DNA from: Methanococcoides sp. EBM-47
Lineage (GTDB): Archaea > Halobacteriota > Methanosarcinia > Methanosarcinales > Methanosarcinaceae
Length of the DNA: 64,000 nt
NCBI GenBank assembly: GCA_001896725.1
Contig: MPPA01000010.1
Location: 372,001-436,000, forward strand
Direction: 5' to 3'
Under the pieces are notes generated by a model. That model saw nothing but the letters and a program-made list of their open reading frames with translations, searched no databases and was not told the DNA's origin. Below are positions 10,535-52,189 of the stretch, piece by piece (position 1 is the first letter of the stretch; each line of letters opens with the position of its first letter). The position numbers and the translations under genes are program-made.

Positions 10535-11677
10535 TTATTTAGCTATCAGACGTACATCTCCGGTGCCAAGCTTAATAGGCTGCCCAACAATAATGTTCTC
10601 AGTGACACCATTCAGTTCATCAACATCACCGCGCATTCCTGCGTCAAGCAGGTGGTTCACAGTCACCTCAAAAGCAGCACGTGCAAATACACTGGCTTTT
10701 TCACCTGAGATCCCATGACGGCCTATCTGCTTAACTTCGCCATCACAGCACATGATATCAGCAACTAGCATTATGTGTCTAATATCCACGGTAAGGCCCT
10801 GTTCAGCCAGCGTATTGATAGCTTCTTTGATAATGGCATTCCTTGCAGCCTCTATCCCGAACACATCGTATATTTCACCAATGTTGTTGGTATAGGTACG
10901 GCTTATGTCAACACCCTCCACTTCCAGTACTTTCTTCAACTGGGATCCCTCGGTGTAGAGCATATATTCATTACCATCTTTACGTATGACGACCCTTTTA
11001 ATACCCTCTATCCCTTTTAAGGTGATATTATTGATGCTCTTTGCCATCTGTAACAATTCTCTGTACGAAGGCTCCTTTGGTTTTACAATGAGTTGATACT
11101 CAATGTTTTCAGACAACATCACCTGTACATCCAATTCTTCACTTAATTTATCGACCAGTTCATCAATAGCTATATTCCTGTAGTTCAAGGTCTTCTCATG
11201 CAGGTCTATAATTAATTGCATGTTCAACAGATCGGTAGTGACATCTGCAAGTTGGTCTATATGCGTAGCCTCTATGTCCCAAGCAAGTTTCCGTGCTTTA
11301 TCTCTATCCAGTGCATATTCTTCCAGAATAGCTATTGTCATTGTCGGAGTGCTTGGTTCCTTTCTCGCATCAACTATCTCTATAAGGCGGGGAAGTCCTA
11401 ATGTAACGTTGATCTCGGCCACACCAGCGTAGTGGAAGGTACGCATTGTCATCTGAGTACCCGGTTCTCCTATCGATTGTGCTGATACTACTCCCACTGC
11501 TTCACAGGGCTCTACTTTTGCATATTCATAACTTTCCTTGACCTTTTCGATGATCTCTTCAAGCTCTTTTTTGTTAACCCCTGCTTTTATTGCATCCTCT
11601 TTTAGTGTCTGAAGGATATTCAATGGCAGATCAAGGTTACTAAGCATTGAGTCGATAGTAGATTCGATCAGAGCCAT
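10535..11677 (-). CDS. rpoA2: DNA-directed RNA polymerase subunit A''
   Basis: 380 residues; the C-terminal third of the largest polymerase subunit (bacterial beta' equivalent), separate in archaea. The bridge/trigger region shows [20 protein letters not shown] near residues 63-82, the trigger loop that closes over the incoming nucleotide. The end reads [18 protein letters not shown], typical of A''. It follows rpoA' with a 2-base gap, so translation is probably coupled. Confidence 0.97.
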
Positions 11678-40921: not shown

Positions 40922-41185
40922 TAGCTACAGCTATTTGTTATATAGATGAATTACGGAAGATTGATCATTATATCACATTTAAATCTTATACATTAGGATT
41001 AATGCAAATAATTAATTGTAATCATACATTTATTAATAATTAATTTACTGATATGCATTAGTATAAATCTATATACTTTAAGGTTATATGATGACATGCG
41101 TAGATATATAGCTTGTAAAAGTCCCCAAATTAGCCAAATATCCCTTATTAAGAAACTCGAGAGATAAATGAAAAAAGAAATGTGT

Positions 41186-41225
41186 GAGCACTCCTGTCCG
41201 CCGCCAAGCAAGAACAGGGGTGCTT
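41186..41225 (+). ncRNA. Leader hairpin copy A (conserved loop GCCGCCAAGCA)
   Basis: Arms 41188-41197 (GCACTCCTGT) and 41214-41223 (ACAGGGGTGC) pair over 10 bp with one G-T, extendable by A-T and G-T at the base. The loop contains GCCGCCAAGCAA, the same as in the leader of the chelatase gene (44632-44670), while the stem sequence differs but keeps pairing. It is followed by TTATCGGGGAGATAACATG, again like the chelatase gene leader, where TTATC and GATAA could enclose the ribosome site. Confidence 0.6.
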
Positions 41226-41247
41226 TTCATATTATCGGGGAGATAAC

Positions 41248-41400
41248 ATGTAAAGAAAATATATATCTGCATTATTCATAAGTACTTTGCTGTTGGTGTT
41301 AAGAACAACTGTTGTTATGGCAGATGGAAAGCAAAATACAAAGAGTGCACATACATCCCTTCTGACAGGGTTCATGGGAATTCCTGGACGCAATTATTAT
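41248..41400 (+). pseudogene. Decayed 5' end of a gene related to the surface CobN-like gene
   Basis: After copy A of the leader, the ATG at 41248-41250 is followed at once by TAA where the intact gene at 44696 has CAA. Reading on in frame gives RKYISALFISTLLLVLRTTVVMADGKQN (seen here as RKYISALFIST and VVMADGKQN), which lines up with RKYVLTLVLS and TIVSADVNKIN of the intact protein. So the leader plus signal peptide were duplicated, then broken by a nonsense change. Similarity fades after about codon 30 and stops appear. The alternative is the remnant of another secreted protein sharing this leader. Confidence 0.6.
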
Positions 41401-42917: not shown

Positions 42918-43604
42918 ATGAACTCTGTTTATGCTATAGTTATTGGCATCTTGTTAGGAATAATGATATTTGCCTTGAAGACTGGCGTTGGATGTGGATT
43001 TTCCAACATCCGAAGAAGAGATGTATTGATCGTTGCTGCAAGCTATTTTGTCATTTCCGTAATACTTGGCGGACTTATAGGATTGGTGGACCAGTCCAGG
43101 CTGGATCTGATAACCAGCATGGGTATGACCCTGCACGTTGTTGTGGCCTTGCTCCTTATAGGTGCAGGTATATACACCCAAAAAAAATGGTTATGTGGAC
43201 ATGATGTATCGAAGCGCACTTTCCTTTTTATCTCAGTTCCATGCCCTGTATGTCTCACTGCATTGTTCGTTTCCTGCATGATACTTGCCTCCGCCCTTGG
43301 ATGGAGTGGTTTCAGGATAGGAGCTTTGGTAGGTTTTGTATTCTTCTTCACAGTCGTGTTTTCAAGCTGGATATTCAGAAAAATGCAGCGCACACCAGAA
43401 GACCTCGGAGCTGTGATGATGTTCCTGGGCATATTTTATCTGCTTGGCTCCATGCTGGTACCAGCTTACATAAAATCTAAACAAACAGTGTATTCTGGCA
43501 GTGGAAGCGAAATTGACCTTATTCCTCTGCTTTTAATGGGCTTTGTGGTCGGTTGTGGATATGCGATACATACTCTAAAGGTGAAAAAGAATGAGTATAT
43601 TTGA
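42918..43604 (+). CDS. DUF2162 putative membrane transporter
   Basis: 228 residues, about six membrane helices. Pattern of DUF2162 (annotated as predicted transporter): FALKTGVGCGFSNIRRRDVL near residues 16-35 and SVPCPVCLTALFVSCMILAS near residues 105-125. The repeated half-structure and the cysteine-containing helices recall transition-metal exporters and importers of the LysE/NiCoT type. In this operon it could move cobalt, nickel or another metal to or from the surface chelatase (inference). ATG is preceded by AGGAAAGG. Its end overlaps the next gene by 14 bases. Confidence 0.75.
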   Translation: MNSVYAIVIGILLGIMIFALKTGVGCGFSNIRRRDVLIVAASYFVISVILGGLIGLVDQSRLDLITSMGMTLHVVVALLLIGAGIYTQKKWLCGHDVSKRTFLFISVPCPVCLTALFVSCMILASALGWSGFRIGALVGFVFFFTVVFSSWIFRKMQRTPEDLGAVMMFLGIFYLLGSMLVPAYIKSKQTVYSGSGSEIDLIPLLLMGFVVGCGYAIHTLKVKKNEYI

Positions 43605-44214
43605 TGTAACGAATAATATAATGAATACGGTCTCAAATTCATTATTATTTCCTGTGATCCTGGTTTTAGTAATACTGGCTTTTTTATCTTTGATACTTAT
43701 AGGGGAGTTCCTTTCAGAGTATGCAAAAAGGAACAGGAACTCTCAGGATCTTAAAAATGCATGTCTTGAACTACATGCCCATGTGGAGCAATCCAACTAC
43801 AGAGCAGCAGCAGATACCTTAAGAAATGTCAAACAAACATTCATTGTAACAAGCTTTGCTCAAGCTGCAGCAGAACATATGGAGAAGAATAGAATACCTG
43901 CTATTGAATGGCTTTCACAGGAATATGAGATAAAGATGTCGAAGAAACTTGAGTTTACCCGCATAATCTCAACCATCGGCCCTATGCTGGGGCTGATGGG
44001 CACGCTCATACCTCTGGGGCCTGCACTCGTAGCTCTTGCAGGAGGGGATCTCCTTACCCTTGCCAACAATCTGATGATAGCTTTTGCTACTACAGTTGTC
44101 GGTCTGTTTGCAGCCAGTATTACTTTTGTATTAACTCAAATAAGAAAAAGATGGTATTGGCAGGACATGGCAGATATTGATTATATTCTTGATTCCATCG
44201 AGGTAAAAGCATGA
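43591..44214 (+). CDS. MotA/TolQ/ExbB-type proton (or sodium) channel protein
   Basis: 207 residues. One helix near the N-terminus (LLFPVILVLVILAFLSLILI, about residues 15-34), a cytoplasmic part of about 85 residues, then two helices containing the family motif ISTIGPMLGLMGTLIPLGPA near residue 127 and LMIAFATTVVGLFAASITFV near residue 158. This is the three-helix plan of TolQ/ExbB. With a DUF2149 partner it should form an ion-driven motor. AAGGTGA inside the preceding gene serves as its binding site; overlaps on both sides show a tight operon. Confidence 0.88.
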   Translation: MSIFDVTNNIMNTVSNSLLFPVILVLVILAFLSLILIGEFLSEYAKRNRNSQDLKNACLELHAHVEQSNYRAAADTLRNVKQTFIVTSFAQAAAEHMEKNRIPAIEWLSQEYEIKMSKKLEFTRIISTIGPMLGLMGTLIPLGPALVALAGGDLLTLANNLMIAFATTVVGLFAASITFVLTQIRKRWYWQDMADIDYILDSIEVKA

Positions 44215-44582
44215 AACCAAGGCGCTACAGAAGAACGGGCTTGTTGAATGCTGAAGAGGAACGAAATCCTCTGGAGGGGGTTGCTAACCTTTTTGATACA
44301 GCAATGGTCTTTGCAGTAGCCCTTATGTTAGCGCTGTTGATGTCATACAATCTAACTGAACTGCTCAGTCCTACAGCAAACACGACCATTGTTAAGAATC
44401 CAGGGCAGAAAGACATGCAGATCATCGTAAAAGAAGGTCAGTCCATTGAAGTGATGAACCTCACTGATCAGATAGGAGGGGGTACCGGCGATGTTCTGGG
44501 TACTGCATACAAGCTAGCTGATGGAAGAGTGGTGTATGTGCCAAATGATGGCAATGGTGATGGCAATAAAACCACTACTTGA
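44211..44582 (+). CDS. DUF2149 protein, ExbD/MotB-like single-pass subunit
   Basis: 123 residues. A basic, short cytoplasmic start, one membrane helix at about residues 27-48 (NLFDTAMVFAVALMLALLMS), then an outside domain with KDMQIIVKEGQSIEVMNL and VLGTAYKLADGRVVYVPNDG. Asp29 sits at the beginning of the helix, the place of the ion-carrying Asp of ExbD, TolR and MotB. It is therefore probably the second half of the channel formed with the ExbB-like protein. Start overlaps the previous stop in ATGA. The role is inferred from topology and context. Confidence 0.75.
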   Translation: MKPRRYRRTGLLNAEEERNPLEGVANLFDTAMVFAVALMLALLMSYNLTELLSPTANTTIVKNPGQKDMQIIVKEGQSIEVMNLTDQIGGGTGDVLGTAYKLADGRVVYVPNDGNGDGNKTTT

Positions 44583-44583
44583 T

Positions 44584-44591
44584 CTTATAAC
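44584..44591 (+). promoter_or_regulatory. TATA-like element before the surface chelatase gene
   Basis: CTTATAAC just after the DUF2149 stop. Transcription from about 44612 would produce a leader of about 84 bases containing hairpin copy B, so the chelatase gene could be controlled separately from the three genes upstream. Confidence 0.35.
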
Positions 44592-44630
44592 ATAAAGTGG
44601 AGTGAAAATTAGTTAAGAAAAAATGCAGGA

Positions 44631-44671
44631 GGCACTTCGGTACTGCCGCCAAGCAATATACCCGAAGTGCT
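44631..44671 (+). ncRNA. Leader hairpin copy B before the CobN-like gene
   Basis: GCACTTCGG (44632-44640) pairs perfectly with CCGAAGTGC (44662-44670). The 21-base loop holds TGCCGCCAAGCA, in which TGC and GCA can pair to leave CGCCAA as a tip. Downstream TTATCGGAGGAGAACATG contains the ribosome site. The same loop and the same downstream block occur at 41186-41250 with a different but paired stem, which is the mark of a conserved RNA structure. The 4-base CCG of the loop could also touch CGG next to the ribosome site (weak inference). It does not show the cobalamin-riboswitch core. Confidence 0.65.
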
Positions 44672-44695
44672 CAGCACACGTTATCGGAGGAGAAC

Positions 44696-47600
44696 ATGCA
44701 ACGAAAATATGTACTTACATTAGTATTAAGTGTATTGTTGTTAGCATCGCTCACAACTATTGTATCGGCAGATGTAAACAAAATAAATATTATGTATATT
44801 TCCTGGACTCCCAGCCCTGCCCTTGAAGCGGCAAGCCAGTCCATGGTGCACAGTTCAGATATAGTGTATACTTATGTGCCTTCATTTAACACGACCACCT
44901 GGGCCAGCCCCAGTGATGAACTGCTGGCAGCAGCAGGTTCAGGGTTATTGATGGAACAGGATGTGATCTTTACTGATATGTTGTCAAGTGCGGTCTTTGA
45001 TCCCATGGACCCGTTTTTCAGGTCTGCAAAGGAAAATGGAACATCTTTTGTGGACATAAGGTCTCTGGGGACACCTGAGTATTTCGATTATGTGTCAGAC
45101 GGCGATGTCAATGATGACATTTGTACCTACTATAACGGTATGGGTACAACCAATGATGGGATCTCGAATGCAGAAAACCTTCTCATATACCTTGCTACAG
45201 AATACAGCAACCTTTCCGAGATCATAGATAGCAATGAAAATCCTATCGATGGCGGCTCAACTGGCAACGGTTCAACAGGCGGTAGTTCAGCTGGTACTGG
45301 TGATGTGAAGTTCCTTTTTGTACTGGGAACCGATCTTAACACTGCTGCCCTGAATAATGCAATATCGTCCTCGGACATTTCTTCTGAACTTGGTACAACA
45401 GTTATTGCAATGAGTGAAGCAGTACCTGAAAACTTTGACTTCTCCGGATATTCCATGATATTCATTGAGTCCAGGGATGAAGCTGCTGTTACTAACTGGG
45501 CCACCGGTATAAATGCTGCCAAGGATAATGGTGCAATGGTCATTGGTTACAATCTTTCTGAGAACATCACTCTGCCTAACGTAGACCTTTATTCTGCCAA
45601 TTATACCGATATTGAAAGATACTGGGTGCAGGGCGGAGAGGCAAACATGGGCAGCATGCTGAAGTTCATGGGACAGAAGTTCTCAGATGCCTTTGCAGGA
45701 CAAACAGTTGCTGAACCAGAGCTTCTGCAAGAGAAGGTTAATGTAACTTTTATCATCAATTCGGATTCCAGTGTGTATCAAATGAAGCAAGTGCTTGCTG
45801 AAAGAGCAGTGATCACTGACCTTTTCAATGTCAATGTCATGACAGGCGGAGAGGCAATAAACAGTTCCATTGATATTAGTAACGAAGATGTCATCATGAT
45901 GTACATGGTGGGAGCTAATGAACTTCCTGTGATAAAGGACGAGCTGCTTACTGCAAAGAACAATGGCGCACAGATCGGAATGTTCGGTATGCTGACAGAT
46001 GTGTACGGCATAGCCACTATAGACATGGCAAGTCCACCCTATGATGCAATGACAAATTATCTGTATTATGATGGCTCAAATAATATGGAGAATTGGATCC
46101 GTTGTGTTGGAGCTACCCTTAAGAACATCTATATTGAATACTCTTCACCAATGGTACCTAACATCCCTGACGATGGGATATATCATCCGGATGCTTTCCC
46201 AAAGATCTTTGCCAATAGTACCGAATATCTGTCGTGGTATGCGGACCATGGTTATAATATGTCAGCTCCTACAATTGGGATCATTGGTGGTAAGCTGGGT
46301 AAGACTTCCATAGAATATAATTCAGAGGATGCCATTATCCGGGAGATAGAGTCAAGAGGCTGTAATGTGATCTATACCACCTCTGCAGTATGTGAAGATG
46401 ACGTAGATTACTTCACCATGGGTGGGGAAGTGTTAGTTGACTCCATTATTTCATTGAAGGGATTCTATCTTAACTATGGTGACCATGAAAAAGGAGTAGA
46501 ATATCTCCAAAAGTACAATGTGCCTGTGATCAAAGCCATACAGGATTATTACCAGACACCGGATGAATTTAATGAAAGCGTACTTGGATTAAGCAGCTCT
46601 TCCATTGCGTATCAGGTCACACAGCCTGAAATAGATGGTCTTACCGATTATATCTGGGTAGCTGGAAGGGTGCAGGACGAGGAAACAGAGCAATATTATT
46701 ATGAGCCCCTGGAATGTCAGGTCGAATGGCTATCTGACAGGGCCATTGCATGGGCAGAACTTGGCAGAAAAGAAAATGCAGATAAAAAGATCACCATCCT
46801 GTACTACAACCACGAGGGCGGCAAGAACAACATTGGTGCCAGCTACTTGGATATAGGTTCAAGCTTCACTCTGCTGCTGGAAGACATGCAGGCTGCAGGA
46901 TACAATATCGGAAATGACAGTGTTCCAAACGGTAGTGAGTTCATTGATCTGTTCATTGAAAGCAGGAATGTTGGCACCTGGGCTCCAGGAGAACTTGAGA
47001 AAGTGGTCCAGTCCGGATATGTAACCCTTCTGCCGGTAGATGAATATCTTGAATGGTACGGAACATTGCCACTAAGCGTGCGTGACGAGGTAGAAGATAT
47101 GTGGGGCAAAGCACCTGGTGAGGTCATGACATATGAGAACAGGAGTGGAAAGTACTTCGTAATACCAACTATACAACTTGGTAATATCAATTTCATACCT
47201 CAGCCAACCAGGGCGGGGACCTCGGATGAGTCGCTTATATATCATGATTCCTCAATGCCGCCTACACATCAGTATCTTGCGACATATTTCTGGATAAACG
47301 ACATATATGATGCAGATGCTATGATACACTTTGGTACCCACGGTACACAGGAATGGCTTCCAGGAAATGAAGTTGGTCTGTGGAGATATGACTATCCATC
47401 TATCATGGTGGCTGAAACTCCTGTAGTCTACCCGTATATAATGGATAACGTGGGCGAAGGCACCCAGGCCAAACGTCGTGGCAATGCCGTTATAATAGAC
47501 CATCTTACTCCACCAATAATAGAGGCTGGTCTTTATGGTGATCTTGCCACAATGAGCGAGAAGATCCAGAAATATAGGGATGCCAGAAGTGATAATGAAG

Positions 47601-49840
47601 CTTCAATGATGACCCTTTATCGTAACAGCACGATACAGCTTTATGGTAACCTAAGCCTTGCAGAGGACCTGGAAGTCTCAACTGACGATTTGTATAATAT
47701 GACCGATAGTGACTTTGAGAGCTTCTTGAATAACGTGCTGGAAGATTATCTTGAAGATATGAAATCAGAGCTCATCCCTTACGGTCTTCATGTCTTTGGT
47801 GTTGCACCACAGGAAGAGAAGCTTGTATGCATGGTAAAATCCATGCTTGGGAACAGATTCACAGATCACATCTACAATGCACTTACAGCAATCAATGGAA
47901 CTGAAGAATATCAGCAGACCGAAGCAGATGCAAATGCAATGTTGCTTTTGAATGCAACCATTCTTAATGGAACGAACATCTCCAATGCTCAGTTTGAGGT
48001 ACTCGGACTTACAAATGCTAATATCACAGCTGATCTGGAGCTGGCGTTGCAGTATGCAGATAACCTTGCTCAGACAACGCGTGAGATCGACCAGACATTA
48101 AGAGCACTTAATGCTGAATACATAGAGCCTTGTACAGGTAATGACCCTATCCGTAACCCAAATGCATTACCCACAGGCAATAACTTCTATAGCTTTGACC
48201 AGAGAACTATTCCTGACGAAGAGACCGAAGCCATGGGAGCTGCCATTATAGATAACTGGCTTGAAACCTATTATTCTGCTAATGACACGTATCCTAATAA
48301 GGTAGCTTTTGTCATGTGGTCTGTGGAAACAATGAGACATGAAGGTCTTATGGAAGCGCAGATCTATGCTCTTCTGGGTGTGGAACTGGAAAGGACCAGT
48401 GGAAGAATAACCGGGTTCAAAGTGATACCGCAGGAAGAAATGACACATCCGAGAATAGATGTGTTGCTCACAACATCGGGACTTTACCGGGACACTTTCC
48501 CCTACCAGATAGAACTTATGGATACCGCAGTCCGCATGGTTGCCCAGCTCAATGAGACGAACGAGACAAACTATGTAAGATGGAACTCGCTGACAATAGA
48601 GGATGCAATGCTGGCAGCCGGATATAATGAAAGTGTTGCACATAATGTTTCTATGTCCAGGGTATTCAGCGAGGCACCGGGTGCATATGGTACAGGTGTA
48701 CCAGAAGCAGTGGCGGCAAGTAATACCTGGGAGAATTCCTCAAAGATTGCTGACCTGTACATATCCCGTATGTCCAATGTGTATGGTAAGGATGTATGGG
48801 GTGTCAATTATGGGGATGTGTTCGAACTGAACCTTGGAGGTGTGTCCTCGGCTATACATAGTGATACATCGAACCTTTACGGTCTTATAGACAATGACGA
48901 CTATTTCTCTTACTTCGGAGCGCTTGGACTTGCTGTAAAATCTATTGCTGGTGACTCTCCTTCAATGTACATTTCTGATCTGACCAGAGTGGACAAACCG
49001 GAGATCATCACGTTAAGCAAAGCTTTCAATGTTGAGCTGAAAGCGAGGTATCTCAATCCTAACTGGATCACGGGAATGATGGAATATGATTATGCAGGTG
49101 CTAGGGAAATGATGAATACCGTGGAATACATGTGGGGATGGGAAGCCACTACACCTGATCTAGTTACTGATTCTGACTGGAATAAGATATATGAGACCTA
49201 TATTCTGGATTCTCAGAACCTTGGACTTGATGACTTCCTCAAGGAGAATGCATATCAATATCAGTCCATCACAGCAAGGATGCTTGAGACCGTAAGAAAG
49301 GATTCATGGGATGCACCAGAAGAAGTTGTTCAGAATCTGGTAAAAGAGTATGTTGAATCCGTGGTGGATAATGGGGTTACATGCTGTCATCATACCTGTG
49401 GCAATCCCTCACTTCATGAATTCGTACAGGGTATAATGTCTGTTCCAGGTCTGGTGGATGAGCAAACTGCTGCAGAATATAAGAAACTCGTGGAAGAGGC
49501 AACTACCAAACCGGCAATAGAAAGTGCCTCTATAAGTCGTAGCAGTAGTTCGAGCAGCTCGAAACAAAAGATCACAGATCAGGTTGCCACCTCTGGACCA
49601 ACGAACCAGACTTTTGAGTCCCATATCGGGGCAGGTACAGATCTTGATCAGCCCGCACCAGAAGCTCCTAGGTCAACCCCTGAGAACTATGTGGAAGGCT
49701 ATGAGATGACCAAGGAAAGTATAGCACCTCCTGAAAGCAGCAATCCTGCATTCTCGGGTTCGGATATAGTTGCTCTTGTCCTTGTGATTGGAGCGGTTGG
49801 AGCAGTCTTAATAGGATTTATGAGAAAGAGGAAGGTGTGA
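44696..49840 (+). CDS. Surface-anchored CobN/magnesium-chelatase-family protein
   Basis: 1714 residues, longer than cytoplasmic CobN (about 1250-1400). Residues 1-25 are a signal peptide (LTLVLSVLLLASLTTIVSA). Three similar Rossmann-like modules follow (about 29-180, 204-345, 349-500); a Gly/Ser linker separates the first two. The chelatase core lies at about 550-1560, with the signature MIHFGTHGTQEWLPG near residue 875 and GEGTQAKRRGNAVIIDHLTP near residue 920. A Cys/His cluster, CCHHTC, is near residue 1562, then a Ser-rich stalk (about 1613) and a C-terminal membrane helix (DIVALVLVIGAVGAVLIGFM) with basic tail RKRKV. So the catalytic part faces outside. No ATPase partner genes are nearby; the ExbB/DUF2149 pair just upstream may supply energy. 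Confidence 0.9.
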   Translation: MQRKYVLTLVLSVLLLASLTTIVSADVNKINIMYISWTPSPALEAASQSMVHSSDIVYTYVPSFNTTTWASPSDELLAAAGSGLLMEQDVIFTDMLSSAVFDPMDPFFRSAKENGTSFVDIRSLGTPEYFDYVSDGDVNDDICTYYNGMGTTNDGISNAENLLIYLATEYSNLSEIIDSNENPIDGGSTGNGSTGGSSAGTGDVKFLFVLGTDLNTAALNNAISSSDISSELGTTVIAMSEAVPENFDFSGYSMIFIESRDEAAVTNWATGINAAKDNGAMVIGYNLSENITLPNVDLYSANYTDIERYWVQGGEANMGSMLKFMGQKFSDAFAGQTVAEPELLQEKVNVTFIINSDSSVYQMKQVLAERAVITDLFNVNVMTGGEAINSSIDISNEDVIMMYMVGANELPVIKDELLTAKNNGAQIGMFGMLTDVYGIATIDMASPPYDAMTNYLYYDGSNNMENWIRCVGATLKNIYIEYSSPMVPNIPDDGIYHPDAFPKIFANSTEYLSWYADHGYNMSAPTIGIIGGKLGKTSIEYNSEDAIIREIESRGCNVIYTTSAVCEDDVDYFTMGGEVLVDSIISLKGFYLNYGDHEKGVEYLQKYNVPVIKAIQDYYQTPDEFNESVLGLSSSSIAYQVTQPEIDGLTDYIWVAGRVQDEETEQYYYEPLECQVEWLSDRAIAWAELGRKENADKKITILYYNHEGGKNNIGASYLDIGSSFTLLLEDMQAAGYNIGNDSVPNGSEFIDLFIESRNVGTWAPGELEKVVQSGYVTLLPVDEYLEWYGTLPLSVRDEVEDMWGKAPGEVMTYENRSGKYFVIPTIQLGNINFIPQPTRAGTSDESLIYHDSSMPPTHQYLATYFWINDIYDADAMIHFGTHGTQEWLPGNEVGLWRYDYPSIMVAETPVVYPYIMDNVGEGTQAKRRGNAVIIDHLTPPIIEAGLYGDLATMSEKIQKYRDARSDNEASMMTLYRNSTIQLYGNLSLAEDLEVSTDDLYNMTDSDFESFLNNVLEDYLEDMKSELIPYGLHVFGVAPQEEKLVCMVKSMLGNRFTDHIYNALTAINGTEEYQQTEADANAMLLLNATILNGTNISNAQFEVLGLTNANITADLELALQYADNLAQTTREIDQTLRALNAEYIEPCTGNDPIRNPNALPTGNNFYSFDQRTIPDEETEAMGAAIIDNWLETYYSANDTYPNKVAFVMWSVETMRHEGLMEAQIYALLGVELERTSGRITGFKVIPQEEMTHPRIDVLLTTSGLYRDTFPYQIELMDTAVRMVAQLNETNETNYVRWNSLTIEDAMLAAGYNESVAHNVSMSRVFSEAPGAYGTGVPEAVAASNTWENSSKIADLYISRMSNVYGKDVWGVNYGDVFELNLGGVSSAIHSDTSNLYGLIDNDDYFSYFGALGLAVKSIAGDSPSMYISDLTRVDKPEIITLSKAFNVELKARYLNPNWITGMMEYDYAGAREMMNTVEYMWGWEATTPDLVTDSDWNKIYETYILDSQNLGLDDFLKENAYQYQSITARMLETVRKDSWDAPEEVVQNLVKEYVESVVDNGVTCCHHTCGNPSLHEFVQGIMSVPGLVDEQTAAEYKKLVEEATTKPAIESASISRSSSSSSSKQKITDQVATSGPTNQTFESHIGAGTDLDQPAPEAPRSTPENYVEGYEMTKESIAPPESSNPAFSGSDIVALVLVIGAVGAVLIGFMRKRKV

Positions 49841-51865: not shown

Positions 51866-52189
51866 TTATATCATCAGCACAAGGTCCTCAAACGCATACG
51901 CATTCTCCGGAGAGGATATAATATGCGGTCTCAGGACATCAATACCTATGTTCATGGTCAATGAGGCTTCAAATATGTCCTGGAGATCTATGTCCCCATG
52001 TTCGAAAAGGTCACCTAGTACCTTCATCCCTTCAATGAAACCAAGCTCTATGAATTCCAGAGGGCTTATACCTGCATCGAGCGCCTCATAAGATACTTGT
52101 TTTGCGGCGCTGTTATCGTGTTCAATGATGGCCTTCTTTGCTCTTGCAAGAAGGGTTGTGGTTTCTGTTCCGGTTTGCATGACAATCAC
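51866..52189 (-). CDS. Stand-alone B12-binding cap (helical-bundle) domain
   Basis: 107 residues. Residues 10-95 match the N-terminal four-helix domain of corrinoid proteins such as MtaC and MtmC (B12-binding-2): AIIEHDNSAAKQVSYEALDA, GISPLEFIELGFIEGMKVLG, then DLFEHGDIDLQDIFEASLTM and DVLRPHI. The Rossmann domain with the DxHxxG cobalt-ligand motif is absent; the protein ends in ENAYAFEDLVLMI. It is either a trimmed corrinoid protein gene or a small protein that caps or senses corrinoid. The next 380 bases hold no Rossmann remnant that I can see. Confidence 0.75.
   Translation of the reverse strand: MIVMQTGTETTTLLARAKKAIIEHDNSAAKQVSYEALDAGISPLEFIELGFIEGMKVLGDLFEHGDIDLQDIFEASLTMNIGIDVLRPHIISSPENAYAFEDLVLMI

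Follow-up and report, generated by a model that had tools for sequence, protein, structure and literature searches.

A surface CobN-type protein encoded with an ExbB/DUF2149 pair and preceded by a leader RNA in Methanococcoides: a possible ion-gradient-coupled chelatase for cobalt and corrinoids

The window analyzed is a 64,000-nt stretch of the Methanococcoides sp. EBM-47 genome (GCA_001896725.1, contig MPPA01000010.1, positions 372,001-436,000). It contains four plus-strand genes that had been described from the sequence alone; the ORFs are real and Pfam confirmed their families. The first encodes a DUF2162 membrane protein, a predicted transporter (42918..43604; PF09930, E 1.8e-65), the second an ExbB/TolQ/MotA-like channel protein (43591..44214; PF01618, MotA_ExbB, E 8.1e-11), the third a one-helix DUF2149 protein (44211..44582; PF09919, E 2.6e-33) and the fourth a 1714-residue CobN-type chelatase, predicted to be at the cell surface (44696..49840; PF02514). 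Start/stop codon overlaps join the first three genes, and a 113-nt gap precedes the fourth. The CobN-Mg_chel match (E 0) spans residues 454-1544 and covers model positions 2-1089 of 1090, so that the protein has a full-length CobN/ChlH domain, like CobNST and ChlHID; its best solved match is HmuS (9d26). Many other genomes carry these families together, far more than chance would allow, with at least 529 DUF2149 relatives in one scan; the scans did not reach the single-membrane bacterial phyla.

Before the CobN gene lies a leader RNA of two hairpins with the loop GCCGCCAAGCAA (44625..44698, plus strand; covariance model R1, 69.2 bits, E 1.3e-14), the second hairpin of which encloses the ribosome-binding site. 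This leader precedes such CobN genes in Methanosarcinaceae and shows strong covariation. A second copy (41181..41250, plus strand; model R1, 70.1 bits, E 8.2e-15) stands before the relic start of a lost CobN gene, found by tblastn of residues 1-29 and having a stop at codon 2 (41248..41334, plus strand). Window positions 41135-41335 are 80.6% identical to the leader and gene start of locus L040, and the relic, as judged from its sequence, is orthologous to the intact CobN gene there (L040:4062-8306). The leader had no match in Rfam 15 at the gathering threshold, nor up to E 5, so that neither a cobalamin riboswitch nor any other Rfam element was found. The idea that its CCNCC loop kisses the Shine-Dalgarno sequence was dropped because the loop fits GGTGG sequences but not GGGGG or GGAGG. 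We regard the two-hairpin leader as a candidate for a new, previously undescribed RNA control element, and CobN translation is probably set by this dedicated RNA.

The CobN protein has exactly two strongly hydrophobic segments, at residues ~4-28 (signal peptide, 1-25) and ~1683-1712 (C-terminal anchor). Since both are terminal, the catalytic body is predicted to be external, all on one side of the membrane, and not cytoplasmic; a Ser-rich stalk is also present. The surface location proposed in the sequence-only reading therefore stands, and sets the protein apart from CobNST and ChlHID. As to the active site, His882 in the motif HFGTHG (878-883) corresponds to the catalytic His538 of HmuS, which lies in HFG(T/A)HG. 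The HmuS motif LSLDHxxEFMGG, which carries the second ligand His1209, is absent from the window protein; NDDYFSYFG (1400-1408) is found there, with Asp1402 in the His1209 column, as in AAA-linked cobaltochelatases. Most surface CobN proteins also have Asp in this column. By alignment, then, the active site of the window protein is CobN-like (His/Asp) and not HmuS-like (His/His). The heme ligands Met79 and His254 of HmuS are likewise missing, being replaced by Val and Gly in columns where the N-terminal alignment is less certain, and the window protein, unlike HmuS, has an added CCHHTC motif (CCHHTCGN, 1563-1570). For the methionine-rich insertion of the HmuS family, the peak number of Met per 100 residues is 9 in the window protein and 25 in Prevotella HmuS, but two further proteins from hmu operons also reach no more than 9 and 8.

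Is such an arrangement new? The sequence-only reading had called it a new use of Ton/Tol/Mot-type energy, but had missed that the families are those of hmuT-hmuU-hmuV-hmuS of Bacteroidota (PMC12583661, PMC13227078; loci L036, L164, L166). Because the hmuSTUV families are identical, and because BtuS was earlier proposed as a third CobN type (in the account given within PMC6460266), the kind is already known. The window cluster resembles hmuYRSTUV and BtuS1/BtuS2 in having, encoded by adjoining genes, an exported, anchored CobN-type protein with the catalytic His538, an ExbB-type protein, DUF2149 and a membrane protein in the DUF2162 position; DUF2162, the ExbB-like protein and DUF2149 take the HmuT, HmuU and HmuV positions beside the CobN-type gene. 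It differs from these systems in its leader RNA, in the cbi contexts of its archaeal relatives, and in lacking HmuY, a TonB receptor and an outer membrane: neither HmuY nor the TonB-dependent receptor HmuR is encoded beside the cluster (HmuY was looked for at the cluster only), no receptor Plug domain occurs in the window's genome, and ExbD is absent from that genome and from all 30 relatives. Lacking both ExbD and a receptor, the archaeal cluster forms a separate variant of the hmu-type set.

HmuS is a proven surface heme de-chelatase that removes the metal (PMC12583661), and the archaeal protein could be its equivalent, stripping iron from heme, either external or the cell's own, to supply the cell with iron. 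HmuS is indeed the closest solved structure, the four families are shared with hmuSTUV, and in Methanosarcina barkeri the abundance of both CobN-like 'BtuS' proteins varies with the iron source, Fe(II)/cysteine and FeS2 giving higher levels than Fe(II)/sulfide (PMC10846266). We nevertheless consider this an unlikely explanation, given the Asp in place of His1209 in the window protein and most surface CobN, the absence of Met79 and His254, and the fact that relatives accompany cbi genes, not heme genes.

The ExbB-like protein is the only MotA_ExbB-type copy in the genome. It aligns with genuine ExbB (hhalign 99.3%) and conserves the pore threonines, as expected of the channel protein it had been taken for. 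The sequence-only reading had also seen an ExbD-like Asp in DUF2149, and this Asp29 is invariant in 26 archaeal sequences; once bacteria are added it is kept in 19 of 20, Runella having Glu. DUF2149 thus has one helix, with an Asp close to where it starts, as do the partner subunits ExbD, TolR and MotB. Its profile match to ExbD is weak (hhalign 15.5%, Asp aligned with Asp) and it has no Pfam match to ExbD (PF02472), and we dropped the view of DUF2149 as a proven ExbD homologue; its predicted structure was too poor for a fold search. Compared with the ExbB/ExbD (TonB), TolQ/TolR and MotA/MotB motors, the cluster has an ExbB-type subunit in common, but has DUF2149 in place of ExbD and neither TonB nor an outer-membrane or peptidoglycan client.

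DUF2162 has five invariant residues (Cys26, His73, Asp96, Cys109 and Cys112 in 24 sequences). Its structure was predicted with pLDDT 85 (all predicted structures were of single chains), and a fold search against the PDB gave no match below E 0.08. The Pfam family was not detected in HmuT of locus L036. The protein that occupies its place in Runella hints at kinship to NicO/DsbD-type proteins. In the literature consulted on DUF2149 and DUF2162, no function is described beyond the hmu operons.

Cytoplasmic CobN and ChlH are driven by an AAA+/VWA motor. None of this ChlID-like type is encoded near the cluster or anywhere in the window's genome, which is 99.97% complete, and an AAA+/VWA gene lies close to 24 of 40 soluble CobN genes but to none of 101 anchored ones. 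The earlier observation that no ATPase partner is encoded near is thereby upheld, and holds genome-wide and in relatives. Among sampled archaea, DUF2149 is present in all 31 genomes with a long, anchored-type CobN and in none of the 34 having only a short CobN, so the pairing extends, without exception, beyond Methanococcoides. Of the three outcomes that the sequence-only reading had named as refuting it, none was observed. The co-occurrence and the lack of an AAA+/VWA motor together support the idea that an ion motor has taken the ATPase's place, and suggest that surface CobN works with a small ion-driven motor in place of an ATP-driven one.

HmuU and HmuV are currently drawn as a power supply for the outer-membrane receptor HmuR. 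In Trichlorobacter lovleyi, plasmid pSZ77 carries the four families in the same order beside B12 genes, with a CCHHTC-type motif, and, unlike the archaeal cluster, also a TonB receptor together with an exbB-exbD-tonB set of its own; the latter had been noted with cobN before (PMC3403914). Since this plasmid has the four genes and a separate Ton set, the ExbB/DUF2149 pair is not the Ton motor, and since archaeal clusters lack a receptor, the chelatase module itself is the most likely client of the pair. Alternatively, the pair could power DUF2162 transport or another surface protein, leaving the chelatase unpowered. As a purified protein, HmuS turns over heme in vitro with no HmuTUV present (PMC12583661); a motor is thus no absolute requirement. 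Moreover, ExbB-DUF2149 pairs without CobN adjoin S-layer proteins (L094 and others) or, in L125 and L151, giant surface proteins together with Peripla_BP_2 proteins. Against this, genome-level co-occurrence with anchored CobN is perfect, and pairs without DUF2162 still accompany CobN (L037, L038, L169); we find this alternative doubtful. It is of note that 30 anchored CobN genes, the second CobN of the window's genome among them, have no ExbB/DUF2149 within six genes, which counts against the ion-coupled reading.

The sequence-only reading had not chosen between tetrapyrroles; the class of the active site and the operon surroundings now point to cobalt and corrinoids. In other archaeal families the cluster stands in cbiMNQO/cobalamin operons. 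No cbi context was found within the window's own family, which counts against the corrinoid reading. For the cbi test, three control stretches (L251, L257, L258) were excluded because they lie on the cluster's own contig, adjacent to it. Two of these three contain cob genes. The same machine might handle nickel instead, in F430 or nickel tetrapyrroles: methanogens need much nickel, CbiMNQO-type importers can carry it, and the set lies inside a hyp cluster in Runella and near nikR in Azospirillum. However, genes adjoining the archaeal cluster encode CbiL/CbiF-type corrin methylases and CbiA, not CfbB, making nickel improbable. We also give little credence to the forward reaction, in which cobalt would be put into a metal-free corrinoid outside the cell. 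In its active-site signature the protein does match the forward cobaltochelatase CobN, but an external supply of such corrinoids is not obvious, CbiX/CbiK insert cobalt early in the anaerobic pathway (PMC7689651), metal removal is what the proven homologue at the surface carries out, and adjacency to importers fits release. Removal is accordingly the more likely direction.

We therefore favor, at a probability of a little under one half, an ion-gradient-coupled surface class I chelatase for cobalt/corrinoids, probably removing cobalt, with a leader-RNA-controlled CobN. Its parts would be the CobN-type ectoenzyme, an ion-driven unit made of ExbB and DUF2149, and the DUF2162 membrane protein. 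We infer the energy coupling, substrate, catalytic direction and DUF2162 transport role as follows. Ion passage through ExbB/DUF2149, via Asp29, would power conformational change in the anchored body of CobN, taking the place of the AAA+/VWA motor; cobalt would probably be stripped from corrinoids or related tetrapyrroles outside the cell; and the freed metal would be caught by the CCHHTCGN motif and imported via DUF2162 and/or a CbiMNQO importer. A bolder version, which we hold only as a speculative minority view, is that an ion gradient acting through ExbB/DUF2149 does the AAA+ ATPase's job and, with no outer membrane, powers the stripping of cobalt from corrinoids outside the cell, the leader being a new cobalt/corrinoid-tuned archaeal riboswitch or protein-read element.

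The HmuS paper (EMBO J. 2025) calls the role of the archaeal homologues unclear; operon contexts and active-site class offer a testable answer, namely cobalt and corrinoids. If the pair serves the chelatase module, it becomes directly testable what energy drives (de)chelation outside the cell. The leader, for its part, is a candidate new regulatory RNA of methanogens with a defined target gene.

All four plus-strand genes are present as first described and match Pfam families DUF2162 (42918-43604), MotA/TolQ/ExbB (43591-44214), DUF2149 (44211-44582) and CobN/Mg-chelatase (44696-49840). The first three each start within the end of the preceding gene, and the CobN start lies 113 nt further on. 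The window CobN has one strongly hydrophobic segment per terminus and none in between; because these segments are confined to the termini, residues 29-1682, including the entire catalytic body, are placed beyond the membrane, on its secreted side, which upholds the cell-surface location proposed in the sequence-only reading. A 107-residue minus-strand ORF at 51866-52189 contains only the B12-binding_2 domain of a methyltransferase corrinoid protein and looks like a fragment.

The claim that no ATPase partner is at hand held among relatives. None of 101 complete CobN proteins with signal peptide and anchor had an AAA+/VWA gene nearby; 71 had ExbB and DUF2149 within six genes (a selection-biased figure, many loci having been fetched via DUF2149) and 30 had neither partner set. 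Among 40 CobN proteins without signal peptide and anchor, 24 had AAA+/VWA, 15 neither, and one ExbB/DUF2149. In the window's genome (99.97% complete) there are two CobN genes, both encoding signal peptide and anchor, and one ExbB-type gene; no ExbD, receptor plug domain or ChlID-like motor was found there, the last occurring in relatives with soluble CobN. The second CobN (L003:9058-13992, G000:C35) is exported and anchored, lacks ExbB/DUF2149 neighbours and, by covariance model, a leader RNA, and may run on the same motor as the window CobN. Within the genus, a 76%-complete genome has TonB-receptor plug domains, on one contig (G001:C227), which are probably contaminating bacterial DNA. One locus, L155:879-9096, breaks the rule: its CobN (DHYYEF site) lacks a signal peptide, yet stands in a row with ExbB, DUF2149, a radical-SAM-looking protein (judged by eye) and a Peripla_BP_2 protein with a C-terminal anchor.

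Do the partners have the parts of an ion channel? The ExbB-like family scored 99.3% against genuine TonB-system ExbB of Trichlorobacter in profile alignment and retains GLMGT and ATTVVGL, the places of the pore threonines of E. coli ExbB. Asp29 of DUF2149 is invariant (26/26 archaeal sequences) and aligns on the Asp of ExbD, and DUF2149 may work like ExbD. The profile match itself (15.5%, P 0.0017) is too weak to make DUF2149 an established ExbD family member. The channel residues proposed earlier are upheld.

A single scan, queried with a mixed DUF2149 alignment, gave 529 relatives; the best 80 of these were all archaeal, with DUF2162-ExbB-DUF2149 nearly always contiguous and one to several CobN genes often next. 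The co-occurrence check suggested earlier was run on a sample of 108 archaeal genomes of the phylum (two with broken CobN excluded): DUF2149 was present in 31/31 genomes with long anchored-type CobN vs 0/34 with short CobN only (Fisher p 3e-19, relatedness ignored). Methanolobus loci L064, L084, L094, L096, L101 and L102 have ExbB-DUF2149 without DUF2162 and CobN, downstream of an S-layer-domain protein of ~870 residues (Pfam PF07752 for L094) that could be a second protein served by the ion motor. In other archaea (L125:2637-8534, L149:2025-6542, L151:963-8942 and 10607-11629) ExbB-DUF2149 lies next to giant surface proteins, with CARDB, beta-helix or squalene-cyclase-like toroid domains, and next to a Peripla_BP_2 protein anchored at the surface.

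A Trichlorobacter lovleyi plasmid carries DUF2162-ExbB-DUF2149-CobN in the window's order, with a TonB receptor on one side and a separate exbB-exbD-tonB set on the other, and adjoining cobT, bzaF and cobyric acid synthase; its cobN with exbBD-tonB was likewise noted before (PMC3403914). With a Ton motor of its own in place, Trichlorobacter does not need the ExbB/DUF2149 pair for the Ton task. Runella has ExbB-DUF2149-CobN within a hyp cluster, a NicO/DsbD-like protein occupying the DUF2162 place, and Azospirillum has CobN-ExbB-DUF2149 with nikR ~7 kb off.

Among solved structures, the heme de-chelatase HmuS of Bacteroides thetaiotaomicron (9d26, E 1.5e-131) is nearest to the window CobN, followed closely by CobN and ChlH. 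The Bacteroidota hmu operon combines HmuS with HmuT (membrane protein), HmuU (ExbB-type) and HmuV (annotated DUF2149) (PMC12583661, PMC13227078, PMC10434189). In that literature HmuU/HmuV are pictured as the power source for the TonB receptor HmuR, and what the archaeal homologues do is termed unclear. BtuS1/2 of B. fragilis and an earlier suggestion that there is a third CobN type (PMC6460266) are also on record, as are two 'BtuS' proteins of Methanosarcina barkeri (PMC10846266). We found hmu-type sets on plasmid loci L036, L164 and L166. Because the hmu operon, with the same families, and BtuS were already described, the earlier claim of a new use of such energy is not supported as regards a wholly new kind. 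The archaeal cluster is a variant of HmuSTUV/BtuS, set apart by cells that have neither an outer membrane nor a Ton system, by a distinct active site and context, and by a new leader RNA.

When 100 CobN-type proteins were aligned, the catalytic His538 of HmuS matched His882 of the window CobN, whereas the second ligand His1209 is replaced by Asp1402, inside a DDxxQ/S-type signature found in AAA-linked cobaltochelatases too (e.g. SDDYLQF); at this site HmuS has DHVYEF and BchH of Tateyamaria VDHYFD. The HmuS heme ligands Met79/His254 are absent from the window CobN. A CCHHTC-type motif right after the catalytic body occurs in 50/61 surface CobN vs 2/39 others, is not in the hmu proteins aligned, and has variants in Trichlorobacter and Runella CobN. 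In a quick tree archaeal and bacterial surface CobN cluster apart from cytoplasmic CobN/ChlH, with HmuS beside them on a weak branch. One surface subclade (L040:4062-8306, L095:13404-17960, L100:10388, L104:10488, L223:13662) has lost the catalytic His, FSIF/FTIF replacing HFGTHG; its members are probable pseudo-enzymes kept beside active copies, and those of L040 and L223 each have their own leader RNA. A small archaeal subclade (L060, L215, L216, L225) with the HmuS-like DHxxE signature, or near it, may be where the genuine heme or porphyrin enzymes are found.

Outside Methanosarcinaceae, several archaea have the cluster set among genes for cobalt import and corrin synthesis: CobN-CbiM-CbiN-CbiQ-CbiO-CbiT-CbiL-CbiF-CbiG (L132, L134), CobN-CbiT-CbiL-CbiF-CbiG-CbiH (L133), CobN-CbiT-CbiL-CbiF (L127), CbiM/Q/O with CbiD, CbiE and CbiA (L124), CbiM/N/Q/O sets (L103, L118) and CbiA (L115, L118). 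The L132 tetrapyrrole methylases are Pfam-confirmed and CbiA, CbiM and CbiQ exceed NCBIfam cut-offs; CfbB falls below its cut-off, and finer Cbi names were assigned by reading sequences. Cbi genes occur at 11/110 loci, 9/11 in these groups, and a single Cbi-like gene in 1/17 unrelated control stretches. The window's own family almost entirely lacks this context, so the window's substrate is assigned by extension.

A structured element (44625-44698) lies between DUF2149 and CobN. In an alignment of 26 related leaders, helix 1 (9 pairs) is capped by a loop with near-invariant GCCNCCAAGCAA, and helix 2 (6 pairs, GUUAUC/GAUAAC) surrounds the ribosome-binding site immediately 5' of the AUG; 91.8% of 390 cells are paired, 10/15 pairs show both-sided changes, and compensatory cells number 61 vs 24 in shuffles, the signal being lost when partners were slid. 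A covariance model found 24 copies in 16/40 whole genomes. Judged by position relative to known CobN genes and by the reading frames that follow, checkable copies lie directly 5' of a gene for a product starting with a CobN-type signal peptide; a few (e.g. G004, G018, G019) were seen only as positioned after DUF2149. The one clear exception (window 41181-41250) stands before the remnant of a CobN start, interrupted by a stop at codon 2; the CobN gene at this place is intact in relative L040. Immediately upstream of CobN in L063, L069, L071 and L086 the stems are the same and the loop core is an exact inversion (GCTTGGCGGC for GCCGCCAAGC), as after a flip between inverted repeats. Rfam gave no match, even at E 5. 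The leader RNA is a new element and a strong candidate for translational control.

As for the proposal that an ion gradient powers an external chelatase, sequence analysis shows the external body, the ion-channel-type partner, the lack of an ATP motor and the CobN-type active site; the coupling we infer. The gradient would drive distortion or opening of the surface chelatase, the job of ATP hydrolysis in cytoplasmic homologues. By analogy with HmuS, metal removal is the likelier reaction, and the metal handled would be cobalt. Because purified HmuS is active in vitro without HmuTUV (PMC12583661), the ExbB/DUF2149 motor may speed or direct the reaction rather than permit it. Having neither outer membrane nor Ton system, these archaea are an informative setting for machinery of the HmuSTUV/BtuS type.
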